From an uncultured Verrucomicrobiales bacterium (GTDB taxonomy: Bacteria; Verrucomicrobiota; Verrucomicrobiia; Verrucomicrobiales; Akkermansiaceae): a DNA stretch of 41,887 bases. The position numbers and the translations under genes were made by a program. The DNA is taken from positions 1 to 41,887 of the forward strand of contig CALGZA010000045.1 in the NCBI GenBank assembly GCA_937934595.1, written 5' to 3'. This document shows positions 2,264-41,887 of this stretch, in pieces; the stretch's first letter is position 1, and each line of letters begins with the position of its first letter. The notes beneath the pieces were generated by a model that saw nothing but the letters and a program-made list of their open reading frames with translations, made no database searches and was not told where the DNA came from.

Positions 2264-3274
2264 TTAGATGATTTCTGCGATCTGGACTGCGTTAAGTGCA
2301 GCGCCTTTTCTGACTTGGTCACCGACAGCCCAGATGGTGAGTGCGTTTTCTAGGACTTGGTCTTTTCTGATACGTCCGACGAGGCAGTCGTCTTTACAGG
2401 TTGTGTCTAGTGGTACTGGGTAGATGTTGTTTTCTGGATCGTCTTTGAGTTTGATTCCTGGTTGGTCTGTGAATGATGCTTTTGCTTCTGTTACATTAAC
2501 TGGGTGTTCGAACTGCGCGGTGATGGATACTGAGTGTGAGCGGTATACGGGGACACGGACGCATGTGCAGGTGACTTTGAGTTCTGGGAGTTGGAGTATT
2601 TTACGGCTTTCGAAGAGCATTTTTTGTTCTTCTTTGGTGAATCCGTTATCTAGGAAGGTGTCAACGTGAGGGATGACGTTTGATGCTATTTGGACTGGGT
2701 AGACGTTGATGTCATCTGGTGTGATGGGGTTGTTGTTAGCGATGAGTTTATTCTGTAGTTCTAGTTCTGCGATGCCTGCTGCGCCGCTTCCTGATACGGC
2801 TTGGTATGAAGATGCGATGATGGACTTGAGGCCGTATTTTTTATGGAGCGGGAAGAGGGCCATGAGTGAGATGATGGTGGTGCAGTTAGGGTTAGCGATT
2901 ATGTTTTTAGGAGCTGACAGGGCTGCTTGAGGATTTATTTCTGGGACGATGAGTGGGACGTCTGGGTCCATTCTGAATGCGGAAGAGTTGTCTATGACGG
3001 TGCATCCGGCAGCTGCTGCTGATGGAGCGTATTCACGCGATATGTCTCCGCTTGCTGAGAATAGTGCGATGTCGATTCCTTCGAAGCTTTGGTGGGTGAG
3101 TTCTTTGATGGTGATTTCTTGTCCGCGGAATGTGGTGGTTTTACCTGCAGATCTGGCGGATGCGAGGAGTGTGAGTTCTTTGATGGGGAAGTTTCTCTCG
3201 GCGAGGCATTTGAGCATTTCTTCTCCTACTGCGCCTGTGGCGCCAACGATAGCGATGTGTTTTTGTGGGTTCAT
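2264..3274 (-). CDS. asd: Aspartate-semialdehyde dehydrogenase
   Basis: This enzyme makes aspartate semialdehyde from aspartyl phosphate with NADPH, the branch point to lysine/diaminopimelate, threonine and methionine. The 336-residue protein opens with the dinucleotide-binding loop IVGATGAVGEEML (about 9-21). The catalytic Cys131 lies in NPNCTTII. Later motifs include SYQAVSGSGAAG and the substrate-binding region around VRVPVYRSHS. Length is normal for the USG-1/Asd family. It is the first gene of a two-gene unit with the prenyl synthase. Its start region faces the miniature lipoprotein cluster, so 3275-3452 must hold two divergent promoters. Confidence 0.95.
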   Translation of the reverse strand: MNPQKHIAIVGATGAVGEEMLKCLAERNFPIKELTLLASARSAGKTTTFRGQEITIKELTHQSFEGIDIALFSASGDISREYAPSAAAAGCTVIDNSSAFRMDPDVPLIVPEINPQAALSAPKNIIANPNCTTIISLMALFPLHKKYGLKSIIASSYQAVSGSGAAGIAELELQNKLIANNNPITPDDINVYPVQIASNVIPHVDTFLDNGFTKEEQKMLFESRKILQLPELKVTCTCVRVPVYRSHSVSITAQFEHPVNVTEAKASFTDQPGIKLKDDPENNIYPVPLDTTCKDDCLVGRIRKDQVLENALTIWAVGDQVRKGAALNAVQIAEII

Positions 3275-3452
3275 TTTGTGTTAATATGTGGCCGGATCAT
3301 ACTGGAAGATATGGAGATGGCAACATTAAGTGAGAATGGGTGAAGAAACCTTTTAATAGTGCTTGCCGAGTGGGAGACTGTGGTTATATTTTTTTTCGAG
3401 TCAGGGGGAGGGTTTCTTTCTGACAACAAACTTAAACTTAAAATATATTATT

Positions 3453-3593
3453 ATGAAACTAGTTAAAATTATCTCTATCGTGGCAGCAGCAGCGGGTATC
3501 GCATTATCAGCATCATGTGGTTCTGCTTCAGCACCAGTTCAACTTCCATCAGTTCCAGGAATCGGTTCATCATACGTCACACCTGCTAAGTAA
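3453..3593 (+). CDS. Miniature lipoprotein 1 (46 aa)
   Basis: The product starts MKLVKIISIVAAAAG and continues to a lipobox-like ending SASCG, giving a lipoprotein signal peptide with Cys about 27. The mature part is only about 20 residues, rich in Ser, Pro and Val and ending TPAK. The frame stays open upstream to 3363, but the signal peptide fixes the ATG at 3453. There is no Shine-Dalgarno; the leader is A/T-rich. Codon choice is A/C-rich, unlike nearby + strand genes. It is followed 17 nt later by a second and then a third gene of the same design. Function unknown; a small outer-membrane lipopeptide is the inference. Confidence 0.7.
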   Translation: MKLVKIISIVAAAAGIALSASCGSASAPVQLPSVPGIGSSYVTPAK

Positions 3594-3610: not shown

Positions 3611-3700
3611 ATGAAAAAATCACTTAGAGCGTTAGCTTATGTTGTTGCAGCAGCGGCTGTAGCACTTTTAAGCGCGAGTTGTGGATGTGGATGTGGATAA
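3611..3700 (+). CDS. Miniature lipoprotein 2 (29 aa), mature CGCGCG
   Basis: The 29-residue frame begins MKKSLRALAYVVAAAA and ends in SASCGCGCG before a TAA stop. It is a complete lipoprotein signal peptide with almost nothing after it: if cleaved before the first Cys (residue 24), the mature product is the hexapeptide Cys-Gly-Cys-Gly-Cys-Gly. It sits 17 nt after the first miniature lipoprotein gene and is followed by a strong terminator at 3740-3771, so the two probably share a transcript. No Shine-Dalgarno is seen. A frame this short could be chance, but the signal-peptide form, the neighbours and the terminator argue for a real gene. Confidence 0.6.
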   Translation: MKKSLRALAYVVAAAAVALLSASCGCGCG

Positions 3701-3739
3701 TAGTCTGGTAGACTGACTGCATTTACTTATTTACTGTAA

Positions 3740-3771
3740 GGTAAGCTTTTCTATAGAAGCTTGCCTTTTTT
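3740..3771 (+). terminator. Rho-independent terminator after miniature lipoproteins 1-2
   Basis: The stem GGTAAGCTT (3740-3748) pairs with AAGCTTGCC (3757-3765), with one G:T wobble, and is followed by six T. It separates the first two small genes from the third. Confidence 0.85.
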
Positions 3772-3825
3772 CTTGCCTAAGTTTCTGAGTAGGCCAGTAT
3801 GTAGTTCATAACCTAATATAAACAT

Positions 3826-3993
3826 ATGAAATTACTCAAAATAGTAACATTATTGGCGCTTGCTGCGGGGTCTGTCACTCTCACATCATGCGGATGCTGT
3901 ACTGGAGAAGAGCCAGTGCCGCCACTTAGACCACTTAAGAGCTTTAATTCGTACGGGTCAGGGTATTCTGGCGGTGTGGACTACGCTAAGTAA
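3826..3993 (+). CDS. Miniature lipoprotein 3 (55 aa)
   Basis: The product starts MKLLKIVTLLALAAG, reaches TSCGCC at residues 20-25 (lipobox LTSC, Cys22) and carries a 33-residue tail with a proline-rich patch (EEPVPPLRPLK) followed by a Gly/Ser/Tyr-rich end YAK. The N-terminus closely resembles that of miniature lipoprotein 1 (MKLVKI versus MKLLKI). The leader is AT-rich and lacks a Shine-Dalgarno. It lies between two terminators and so is probably its own transcription unit. Function unknown; the family resemblance suggests local duplication followed by divergence of the tails. Confidence 0.7.
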   Translation: MKLLKIVTLLALAAGSVTLTSCGCCTGEEPVPPLRPLKSFNSYGSGYSGGVDYAK

Positions 3994-4074: not shown

Positions 4075-5994
4075 TTATTGTTTGAGTTGGCGGTAGTCGT
4101 CTGTGCGGACTGTTATGCCTTCGGTGTCTAGTCTTTCTAGTAGTGGCATGAGTACTTTACGTGTGGTGCCGATTTGTTGGCGGATTTCACTGGCTGTGGC
4201 TTTTTGGGTGTTGGTGAGGTGGGCGATGATGGCTTGTTTGGCGATTTCGAATTGAGATGTTTCTAGTAGTGCTTTGGGGTCTAGTTCGATGATTTTACCG
4301 CTTCTGATGAGGAATGTGAGAGCTTGCTGAGCGTCTGGTGTGTCTGCGAGTTCGACACGTGGTGGTGGCTGTAGTCCTGCTGATTTGAGTGTGGCGAGGA
4401 TTTTGTTAGCGGTGATTTGGAGGTTATCTGGTAGTTCTAGTGAGTGTTCAGCGCTGGCAATACCGTCTTTGATTTTATTGAATCCATTTGCTGTTAGGTG
4501 TTTTTCGATATGATCTGAGAGTGATGGGTGGATGGAGTTTTCGATGAGTTGGTTTCTCCATTCTTCTATGGGCATAGTGGGGGTGTCTGGGTGATTTTTA
4601 TGGAATGATGAGATGATGTTTGTGGCCGTGTTAATGGCTGTTTTCCATCCTGCGGGGTCTATGATGTGGTCTCCGCGGTTGGTGATTTTCTTTTCTTTGA
4701 TGAGTTTGTTGATTTGTTGTTTGGTGTATTCGGTGGTGAATGGTGAGTTTGTGATGGGTTTGTTGGTGTTTAGGATGGGTGATTTTTTGAGTTCTGTGAT
4801 GATGAGGTGTCTGAGGTTATCTGGGTTTTCAGCTCTCTGGGTGAGGAAGTTAAGTCTTGTTTGGGTTCTGAACTGTCTGGGTTCTGCGAGAGCGTCTAGG
4901 ATGATTCCTCCGCCGAGAGTTCCTTGTTGGGCTCCGTCACGGATGACGAATCTGTCACCGATGCATGCGCTTATAGGTTCTTCGAGTCTGAGCTGAGCGT
5001 AGCATGAATCTCCGGGTGCTAGCTGGGTATGTGAGTGGAGGATGATGCGAGCGCGGGTGCGTGATGTTCCGTGGTGGAGGATGATGGTTTCTGTGTGTTT
5101 GAGTTGGCGTTTGGTGGCGCTTTGGCCGCGGATGGAGCGTTCTTGTCTGGTGAGTGAGATGTCTAGGGTGGAGGTTTGAGTGAGTGTATTAGGGGTGGTG
5201 ATGACTGAGCCACGTTGGACACCTGGTTTACCTCGTTCATTGAGTGGGAGGTCTGGTGCGTTGAGTGCGGTGCGCATTCCGTGGGTGGCGGTGTCAAGTT
5301 GTGAGGAGTGGTTCTGGATGCCGCGAATGTTAGAGTTGATTTGTTCTGGGGTGCAGCAGATGGTGTCACCTTTTGATATGTTTCCGCCGGTGAGTGTTCC
5401 TGTGATGACTGTTCCTACGCCTGTGGGGGAGAATGTTCTGTCTACGGATAGTCTGGGGATGAGGTTTTTTGGGGACTGCTTGAGTAGTTTGATGCGTGTG
5501 AGTATTTCTGTTTTTAGGGTGTCTATTCCTTGTCCTGTGATGGATGATACTGGTATGATGGTAGCTTCTTCTAGGCTGGTTCCGGTGAGTTCATCACGGA
5601 TTAATTCTTCTGTGAATTCGATGTCTTCTGCGAGGTCTGCTTTAGTTAGAGCGATGATGACATTTTCGACTCCGAGGTAGTTTAGGATGTGAAGGTGTTC
5701 TTCTGACTGAGGCATCCAGCCGTCATCTGCGGCTACGATGAAGACAGCTAGATCTAGGGATCCTACTCCTGCGACCATGTTGTTTACGAAGTCTGCGTGG
5801 CCTGGGACGTCGATGATGCCTATTTCATGTTGTTTGGCTTTGTCTTCTAGGGACATGTGTGCGAAGCCTAGCTCGATGGTGACTCCGCGTTTTTTTTCTT
5901 CTGGAAGACGGTCTGGGTCGATTCCTGTTAGGGCTTTGACGAGTGAGGATTTGCCGTGGTCTATGTGACCTGCTGTGCCTAGGATGCAGTGCAT
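4075..5994 (-). CDS. selB: Selenocysteine-specific elongation factor SelB
   Basis: SelB delivers selenocysteinyl-tRNA to UGA codons that carry a SECIS hairpin. The 639-residue protein has an EF-Tu-like GTPase at the N-terminus: GTAGHIDHGKSS (P loop, about 6-17), KKRGVTIELGF (about 34-44), DVPGHADF (about 63) and TKAD (about 117). Two beta-barrel domains follow. The C-terminal third (about 380-639) matches the winged-helix repeats that bind the SECIS element, ending in a segment like ASEIRQQIGTTRKVLMPLLE. Length is typical. It starts 3 nt after the infA stop, so the two are probably one transcript. No selA, selD or tRNA-Sec gene is visible in this window. Confidence 0.93.
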   Translation of the reverse strand: MHCILGTAGHIDHGKSSLVKALTGIDPDRLPEEKKRGVTIELGFAHMSLEDKAKQHEIGIIDVPGHADFVNNMVAGVGSLDLAVFIVAADDGWMPQSEEHLHILNYLGVENVIIALTKADLAEDIEFTEELIRDELTGTSLEEATIIPVSSITGQGIDTLKTEILTRIKLLKQSPKNLIPRLSVDRTFSPTGVGTVITGTLTGGNISKGDTICCTPEQINSNIRGIQNHSSQLDTATHGMRTALNAPDLPLNERGKPGVQRGSVITTPNTLTQTSTLDISLTRQERSIRGQSATKRQLKHTETIILHHGTSRTRARIILHSHTQLAPGDSCYAQLRLEEPISACIGDRFVIRDGAQQGTLGGGIILDALAEPRQFRTQTRLNFLTQRAENPDNLRHLIITELKKSPILNTNKPITNSPFTTEYTKQQINKLIKEKKITNRGDHIIDPAGWKTAINTATNIISSFHKNHPDTPTMPIEEWRNQLIENSIHPSLSDHIEKHLTANGFNKIKDGIASAEHSLELPDNLQITANKILATLKSAGLQPPPRVELADTPDAQQALTFLIRSGKIIELDPKALLETSQFEIAKQAIIAHLTNTQKATASEIRQQIGTTRKVLMPLLERLDTEGITVRTDDYRQLKQ

Positions 5995-7308: not shown

Positions 7309-7409
7309 GAGGTGAGTTTTAGGGAGGAGAATTTATTTGCAAAGTAAAAATCTTGCTTGCTTTGGCAGAGATATGGGAACAGAGTCTGCGCCGAAGGATA
7401 TGCTTAGAT

Positions 7410-7481
7410 GCCCTAGTAGTTCAACGGATAGAACAAGGCTTTCCTAAAGCTTAGATGTAGGTTCGATTCCTGCCTGGGGTA
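7410..7481 (+). tRNA. tRNA-Arg (anticodon CCT)
   Basis: A full cloverleaf can be drawn: acceptor GCCCTAG/CTGGGGT with wobbles, D arm GTTC/GAAC, anticodon stem AGGCT/AGCTT with loop TTCCTAA (anticodon CCT, reading AGG), a four-base variable loop, T arm GTAGG/CCTGC with TTCGATT, and discriminator A. CCA is not encoded. It stands alone between two minus-strand genes. Confidence 0.92.
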
Positions 7482-7542
7482 TATTAGCATTTTTGTGTGT
7501 GTTGGTTATTATTTGTTTGAGGGAGGATTAGGTTGTTTGGGT

Positions 7543-28752: not shown

Positions 28753-28827
28753 GGGACGGTAGCTCAGCGGTAGAGTAGGAGACTCATAAGCTCTTGGTCC
28801 CGAGTTCAAGTCTCGGTCGTCCTACCA
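28753..28827 (+). tRNA. tRNA with CAT anticodon (elongator Met or Ile2)
   Basis: The 75-nt sequence folds as acceptor GGGACGG/TCGTCCT, D arm GCTC/GAGT, anticodon arm GGAGA-CTCATAA-GCTCT with an A31/G39 mismatch, five-base variable loop TGGTC, T arm CCGAG/CTCGG, discriminator A and encoded CCA. The acceptor closes with base 1 paired, so it is not initiator tRNA. CAT can mean elongator tRNA-Met or tRNA-Ile whose C34 becomes lysidine; CTTGGTC and TTCAAGTC resemble bacterial tRNA-Ile2, but this is not decisive. A strong terminator follows. Confidence 0.88.
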
Positions 28828-40139: not shown

Positions 40140-41887
40140 ATGTTTTTATTAAACCGCAAATTTTGGCTTTCTGTGTTTCGAGTATGGATGGTGTGTGTGG
40201 TGGTTGCACTTGTGGTGAGGTTAGTGCAGTTGAGTTTTGTTACTGAGAGGCAGGCGGCTTTGGTAGGTTTGAGTGAGCGTGGTTATTTGGCGACTCCGAT
40301 GCAGGTGCGTTTGAGTGCGAGTTCTGGTGATGCTGATGTTTTGCGGGAGCTGGGTGAGTTAGGTGTGGATTTTGATTCTGTGGATGAAGATGGAATGGAT
40401 GCGGTTCATTTGGCGCTTGATCATGAGCGATGGGAGGCACTGGGTGTGGTGCGTGATTATGCGTTGGAGAATGACCGTGTGGGTGGTGGTGGGAAGACTC
40501 CGGTGATGAAGTTATTGGATAGGGGTGATTTGGAGTTGGCGCAGAGTTTTGTGGATGATGGTGGTGGTGTTGATTTTAGGATGATGGATGGTGGTGTGGA
40601 GGTTCCAGCTGTAGTTTATTATTTATTACGTAATGACGAGGCGCGCTTTAATTTTGTGGCTGGTAATGCTAAGGATTTGGATGTGCGTGGTGCTTATGGT
40701 AGGGTATTGTTACAGATAGCGATGGAGGGTGGATATACGGCGGAGACTTTGGCTCTGGTGAGGTATGGTGCTGATTTGAGTAAGTTAGATTTACCTGGTG
40801 GGAGTGTGTTGTGTGAGATTATTGAGAATCCGTTACGTTATGCTTTGAGTGATAGTGATCAGGTTCGGTTGCTGGGTGCTTTGCTTGCTCGTGGTGTGGA
40901 TGTGAATGAGGCTGATGGTGGTGGTGAAAGGCCGTTGAGCGTGGCTATAAGGGAGGGTAGGTTTTCGGCATTTTCTTTGTTGATGAGTCATGTTGTTAAA
41001 GATCAGAGTTATGTTTGGGATGCTCTTAGGTATAATCGGTCTGAGATGCTGAGGGAACTTTTGGTGTCTGGCTGGAAGAGTGATGAGGTGGGGGCGGGTG
41101 GTGAGACGCCTTTGGTAAGTCTTTTGAAGCGTGGGGGAGCTGAGGCTGCTGAGATGGTGGGTGTGTTGCTGGATCATGGTGCTGATGCTGACCAGGTTGC
41201 GGCTGAGGGGCAGCGTGCTGTTTTTGTGGCTATTGTGGCTGGTAAATCATTGACTGCGAAGGCGCTTATAAATCATGAGAAGGGAGCTGATGTGCATGGG
41301 GTGATGAACTTTCCTGTTTCTAGGGCGTTTTTTGGATTGTTTAATAAGCGAGGGCTTTGTGGTTGGTATTGTAGGAATGTGCGGGGGCTTAGTCCTTTGA
41401 TGATTGCTGTTTTGAGGGATGATTTGGGTGTGGCGCATGCTTTGGTGAAGAAGGGGGCACGCAGGGGGCAGAGGACAGAGGCTAAGACGTATCCGATACA
41501 GATGGCGGCTAGTATGAAGAATGTTCGTATGCAGCAGTTGGTATTGGGTGTTCCTTTTGATGATGGTAAGCAGGCTCGGAGGTTTGTTGTGGATTTATCT
41601 CAGCAGAAGGTGTTTTTTTATAAGTGGGGGAAGGTGGTGCGGTCATCACGTTGTTCAACTGGTAAGAAGGATTATAGGACGCCTGTGGGTGAGTATGTGA
41701 TAACGAGCAAGGAGGAGGATAAGGTTTCTAATATTTATAAGGATGCCGAGATGCCTTATTTTCAGAGGTTTTCGTGTAAGGATATAGGTTTCCATGAGGG
41801 TGCTACGTATGCTGGTTTTCTGTCTCATGGGTGTATTAGGTTGCCGATGAGTAGTGCGAAGTATTTTTATAAGCATAGTAGAGTGGG
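40140..41887 (+). CDS. Ankyrin-repeat L,D-transpeptidase, C-terminus cut by window edge
   Basis: The frame is open from ATG 40140 to the window end, 582 codons without a stop. An N-terminal helix (VWMVCVVVALVVRLV, about 15-30) anchors it. Ankyrin-type repeats span roughly residues 65-475, with motifs such as DGMDAVHLALDHERW, GADLSKLDLPGG and LLDHGADADQVAAEG. From about 478 to the edge is a YkuD domain: FVVDLSQQKVFFYKWGKVV, CSTGKKDYRTPVGEY, and the catalytic SHGCIRLP with Cys565 and His563. Such enzymes form 3-3 peptidoglycan cross-links or attach proteins to the wall. Probably only a short C-terminus is missing. Confidence 0.87.
   Translation, partial: MFLLNRKFWLSVFRVWMVCVVVALVVRLVQLSFVTERQAALVGLSERGYLATPMQVRLSASSGDADVLRELGELGVDFDSVDEDGMDAVHLALDHERWEALGVVRDYALENDRVGGGGKTPVMKLLDRGDLELAQSFVDDGGGVDFRMMDGGVEVPAVVYYLLRNDEARFNFVAGNAKDLDVRGAYGRVLLQIAMEGGYTAETLALVRYGADLSKLDLPGGSVLCEIIENPLRYALSDSDQVRLLGALLARGVDVNEADGGGERPLSVAIREGRFSAFSLLMSHVVKDQSYVWDALRYNRSEMLRELLVSGWKSDEVGAGGETPLVSLLKRGGAEAAEMVGVLLDHGADADQVAAEGQRAVFVAIVAGKSLTAKALINHEKGADVHGVMNFPVSRAFFGLFNKRGLCGWYCRNVRGLSPLMIAVLRDDLGVAHALVKKGARRGQRTEAKTYPIQMAASMKNVRMQQLVLGVPFDDGKQARRFVVDLSQQKVFFYKWGKVVRSSRCSTGKKDYRTPVGEYVITSKEEDKVSNIYKDAEMPYFQRFSCKDIGFHEGATYAGFLSHGCIRLPMSSAKYFYKHSRV

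Follow-up and report, generated by a model that had tools for sequence, protein, structure and literature searches.

A 29-codon gene of an Akkermansiaceae genus, conserved at the protein level, with a predicted Cys-Gly-Cys lipopeptide product

Small lipoprotein genes between asd and a selB-type gene

The window, a 41,887-nucleotide stretch spanning positions 1 to 41,887 of contig CALGZA010000045.1 (assembly GCA_937934595.1) from an uncultured Verrucomicrobiales bacterium of the family Akkermansiaceae, carries three tiny lipoprotein genes, here termed A, B and C, in a plus-strand run between asd and a selB-type gene. The features of this locus, and two tRNA genes located further downstream, are as follows:

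2264-3274, minus strand: asd, flanking the A-B-C cluster
3363-3390, plus strand: candidate sigma-70-like promoter for A-B (TTGCCG-16-TATATT), a match to the consensus and as such weak evidence
3453-3593, plus strand: gene A, 46-aa lysine-terminated mini-lipoprotein (SASC, then GSASAP...YVTPAK), 17 nt upstream of B
3611-3700, plus strand: gene B, 29-aa prelipoprotein with signal peptide 1-23 and predicted mature part CGCGCG (lipid-Cys plus free Cys-Gly-Cys), with orthologues in eight species
3738-3775, plus strand: intrinsic-terminator-like hairpin (3738-3767) and T run, between the A-B unit and C
3826-3993, plus strand: gene C, 55-aa lysine-terminated mini-lipoprotein (TSC, then GCCTGEE..PPLRPL..DYAK)
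4075-5994, minus strand: selB-type gene with SelB domains, flanking the A-B-C cluster
7409-7482, plus strand: tRNA-Arg(cct)
28753-28827, plus strand: tRNA-Met(cat)

Genes A and B are presumably cotranscribed, and the terminator hairpin begins 38 nt downstream of gene B. Between the terminator and gene C, at 3773-3801, lies a TTGCCT..(about 17)..AGTATG block that appeared conserved by eye in the loci compared and is a possible promoter of C. Elsewhere in the window, similar stretches (..GATCTGAGGGA..ATCCC..) at 120-215 and about 1210-1300 flank the 640-1200 region; an Rfam search gave no match in this repeat area.

The 29 codons of gene B run from an ATG at 3611 to a TAA at 3698-3700 and encode MKKSLRALAYVVAAAAVALLSASCGCGCG, in which six residues follow a type II signal peptide; split at the predicted cleavage site, the translation reads MKKSLRALAYVVAAAAVALLSAS and CGCGCG. 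The signal peptide shows an n-region with KK..R, a hydrophobic core and the lipobox LSAS-C, in which the Ser at position -3 is non-canonical; the neighbouring gene A has the same SAS-C box. Canonical lipoboxes (LASC, LTSC, LSSC or LSAC) are found in five B orthologues, and SAS-C in the window and in genomes G001 and G008. As read from the sequences, Lys/Arg in the n-region, a hydrophobic core, a lipobox and Cys at +1 are present in all eight species. In addition, Pfam profiles detected both Lgt (PF01790, E 8.9e-60) and LspA (PF01252, E 4.1e-32) in the genome that contains the window (3.15 Mb, 95.9% complete), and the B product is predicted to be lipidated and cleaved. A 29-residue frame consisting of a lipoprotein signal peptide and a six-residue CGCGCG tail had been put forward in the initial annotation, and the ATG-TAA frame, the lipobox and the orthologues in eight species bear this out. 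That annotation also envisaged three usable cysteines in the mature peptide; as Lgt uses the thiol of the first Cys for diacylglycerol, the mature product would have two free thiols, those of Cys-Gly-Cys, rather than three.

Conservation of gene B and of its cysteine tail

Of the 12 genomes of the genus, eight (G000, G001, G002, G004, G005, G006, G008 and G011) carry an orthologue of B within this cluster. An A-type gene lies 8-30 nt upstream of B in every one of these species, and the cluster adjoins asd in seven of them, while in G002 it is located on another contig. Three further genomes (G009, G010 and G007) possess A and C and lack B, indicating that B is dispensable; in G009, nothing but the terminator and the stretch leading up to C occupies the corresponding gap. 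The remaining genome, G003, is uninformative for B, being 82% complete with neither A nor C found. In a tree of Asd, genomes with and without B are intermingled across supported branches, with a minimum of three changes; G009 is nested among B carriers and G010 is sister to G005. One early gain of B followed by losses fits this tree, and B seems to have been lost in at least two lineages.

We found no B-like gene in other genera among 260 genomes of the family and 387 of the order, with weak matches judged by frame length. The weak matches outside the genus lay in open frames at least 55 residues long (55-273; 55-210 in a second search), longer than any B. The DNA motif CGCGCG, present in 151 of the 260 family genomes, was likewise discarded as a sign of B elsewhere, as the 30 loci read, all from genus g3, contained no ultrashort lipoproteins. 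When a strict filter for ultrashort lipoproteins was applied to both strands of 80 cluster loci of the family, it returned the B genes of the eight species and no other ORF; such ORFs are therefore not readily produced by chance in this DNA.

The predicted mature tails are CGCGCG (three species), CGCGCGL, CGCGCGG, CCGCGCGL and CCGCM (two species). In an alignment of the eight species, the lipid Cys and a Cys-Gly-Cys are the invariant columns of the tail, with length and flanks varying around them; the stop position shifts within two codons, and the start and the cysteines are kept. CGC beyond the lipid Cys, the sequence hallmark of a CXC dithiol peptide, is thus present in 8/8 species. Among the six species that share the CGCGCG core, at least seven nucleotide changes have occurred over its six codons, touching every codon, and all are third-position and synonymous, with the Gly codons switching freely between GGA, GGT, GGC and GGG. 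Under neutrality, such a synonymous-only core has a probability of 3e-5 to 1e-4 if changes are counted as independent and the tree is ignored. Summed pairwise pN/pS was 0.24 for the tail compared with 0.70 for the signal peptide, and pN was 0 within the six CGCGCG cores; these ratios are descriptive, because the pairs are non-independent, the tail is tiny and CCGCM was compared ungapped. As the tail is so short, part of the selection on it may reflect lipobox context.

Taken together, gene B is a genuine conserved gene under selection at the protein level, and its conservation in eight species, the filter control and the purifying selection on its tail rule out a chance ORF. Homologous loci lacking the start, stop or cysteines and showing no selection on the frame, the outcome that the initial annotation had named as counting against it, are not what we observed: all of these elements are kept in the eight species, and the core changes in six of them are synonymous only.

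Lysine-terminated neighbours of gene B

The gene A family is represented in 127 and gene C in 221 of the 260 family genomes. Lys directly precedes the stop codon in all 19 A homologues and all 48 true C members read, despite indels upstream; the C count leaves out a 49th sequence, which is an unrelated antisense ORF. A mixed A/C set that overlaps both samples likewise showed a terminal Lys in 21/21 sequences. For none of the three genes A, B and C did Pfam or NCBIfam yield a match above cut-off, and a PDB profile search with gene C gave nothing meaningful. The mature part of C starts with CGCC, and the CC near the lipid Cys is invariant in an alignment of 12 sequences and present in most further homologues.

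In Methylacidiphilum, a verrucomicrobial lipoprotein whose C-terminal Tyr and Lys are conserved has been detected in both the membrane and the peptidoglycan fraction (PMC10260701). Like Braun's lipoprotein Lpp and this Methylacidiphilum protein (WP_009060351), A and C combine a lipid Cys with a C-terminal Lys, often near a Tyr, a likeness at the level of these features. Based on these sequence features, A and C may be short, Lpp-like lipoproteins linked to peptidoglycan. YkuD L,D-transpeptidase domains have eight matches in the genome, one of them within the window at 41577-41876, and YkuD enzymes could attach lysine-ended lipoproteins to peptidoglycan. The YkuD domain in the window (plus strand) is part of a frame of roughly 588 aa that stays open to the contig end, and follows a region that by eye resembles ankyrin repeats. 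In contrast to Lpp, B has no C-terminal Lys, ending in G, L or M in 8/8 species, and so cannot be anchored in the manner of Braun's lipoprotein.

A fourth type of small lipoprotein (..LSSCRLAQS..VGRTAGL, ..NSCQTLGRTMQ..VGRSAGL) adjoins C in some relatives (L009, 3572-3748; L014, 381-569; L015, 629-742). It is entericidin-like in look and had no Pfam or NCBIfam match above cut-off.

Predicted product and possible roles of gene B

Entericidins have a Sec/Lsp signal peptide, a lipobox and a very small mature part of about 20 residues, and occur as clustered paralogues. B likewise combines a type II signal peptide and a lipobox with a very small mature part and clustering; it differs in that its predicted mature part comprises 5-8 residues with Cys-Gly-Cys, compared with about 20 in entericidins. 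The sole NCBIfam match of B was LptM (YifL, NF047847), which at 13.7 bits versus a cut-off of 27.7 was sub-threshold, placing B outside the LptM family, and was confined to the signal peptide and the first two tail residues. LptM is a lipoprotein of E. coli that helps LptD to acquire disulfides in the LPS translocon (PMC10567701). Like B it is a small lipoprotein, but the E. coli protein is reported to work by LPS-binding mimicry and not by a thiol pair, and the likeness would be a functional analogy at most.

The free CGC motif of predicted mature B is identical to that of CXC dithiol mimics of PDI. The reduction potential given for the Cys-Gly-Cys triad is close to that of PDI, at -167 mV (Woycechowsky and Raines 2003, via PMC4316792), and the same article, drawing on this and other work, describes small CGC peptides as PDI mimics. 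The CXC dithiols described there are synthetic peptides or a triad within Nox2, whereas B would be genome-encoded and lipid-anchored. Given this redox potential and the PDI mimicry, we propose, with moderate confidence, that gene B encodes a minimal membrane-anchored dithiol lipopeptide, likely a membrane-surface dithiol for thiol-disulfide exchange, or a soft-metal ligand.

Under this proposal, B would probably be produced together with the lysine-terminated A, and its 23-residue signal peptide would direct it to Lgt and LspA. Once the first Cys of the tail had been diacylglycerylated and the signal peptide removed, there would remain a 5-8-residue lipopeptide with an N-terminal lipid-Cys, that is, little beyond a lipid anchor bearing a free Cys-Gly-Cys dithiol. 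This dithiol would most likely act as a small thiol-disulfide exchange reagent at the membrane surface, with the juxtamembrane Cys-Cys of neighbouring C as a possible partner; alternatively, the two free thiols might bind metal. We infer the processing, membrane location, cotranscription and thiol chemistry of B from sequence. The 95.9% complete genome yielded no match to the Pfam domains of DsbA (PF01323) or VKOR, the two searched for in this respect, which weakens a role of B in a disulfide pathway. More tentatively, as possible rather than probable, we suggest that B is a natural Cys-Gly-Cys lipopeptide that acts, possibly together with the CC of C, as a minimal cofactor for disulfide or metal handling tethered to the membrane; if this is true, B would rank with the smallest functional lipoproteins, in a host with no match to DsbA (PF01323) or VKOR.

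The cysteines of B might instead serve attachment, forming mixed disulfides with the CC of C, or with a second B, to give a B-C pair or a dimer in the membrane. Such pairing would be in line with the invariant CC beside the lipid Cys of C and with B and C sharing a cluster in those g1 loci that were read; we nevertheless consider it unlikely, as the genome has no match to DsbA (PF01323) or VKOR, and as the occurrence of C in 221/260 family genomes, with B in one genus, implies that C does not need B.

About 80% of the B product is signal peptide, and lipoprotein signal peptides can act as signalling molecules, with enterococcal pheromones as a precedent. The cleaved signal peptide or the export of B could therefore be what is functional, as a membrane peptide or as a load on, or sensor of, Lgt, LspA or Lol, the tail being processing context. 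The initial annotation had raised the signal peptide itself as the product. We regard this as improbable, because the tail past the lipid Cys is held at the protein level and is more constrained than the diverging signal peptide (pN/pS 0.24 vs 0.70), and CGC is unnecessary for a lipobox. Equally little credence can be given to B as a copy of A that is decaying or neutral and is translated without having a function: it resembles the signal peptide of A, adjoins A and, if the tree is read in the simplest way, was lost in at least two lineages, but its start, stop region, lipid Cys and CGC are kept in eight species, which is unexpected for a decaying copy, and its tail core changes synonymously only in the six-species set. 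Finally, repeated Cys codons just before the stop and a hairpin 38 nt downstream in the window could recall a Cys/Gly-codon leader that senses charged tRNA and attenuates a downstream gene without making a useful protein, which we rejected as highly improbable: no terminator directly follows B in G011, G006, G005 or G002, where an A-type lipoprotein gene intervenes (in G006 and G011 the hairpin lies 3' of a further A gene), a hairpin of the window's type persists in L005, a locus without B, the downstream genes encode lipoproteins and not Cys/Gly metabolism, the Gly codons switch freely, and a full signal peptide and lipobox are kept in 8/8 species.

To our knowledge, no functional lipoprotein as short as B has been described, and a narrow literature search found none. 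If the predicted dithiol lipopeptide is indeed the product, B would lower the minimum size of a functional lipoprotein, and lipoprotein biogenesis would in this case build something close to a small-molecule cofactor, namely a lipid headed by Cys-Gly-Cys. B would then also show that clear selection at the protein level can act on ORFs of fewer than 30 codons, and would offer a testable case of membrane-surface thiol chemistry. Beyond B, the A-B-C locus suggests that a widespread set of lysine-terminated mini-lipoproteins exists in the Akkermansiaceae, possibly as tethers between outer membrane and wall.
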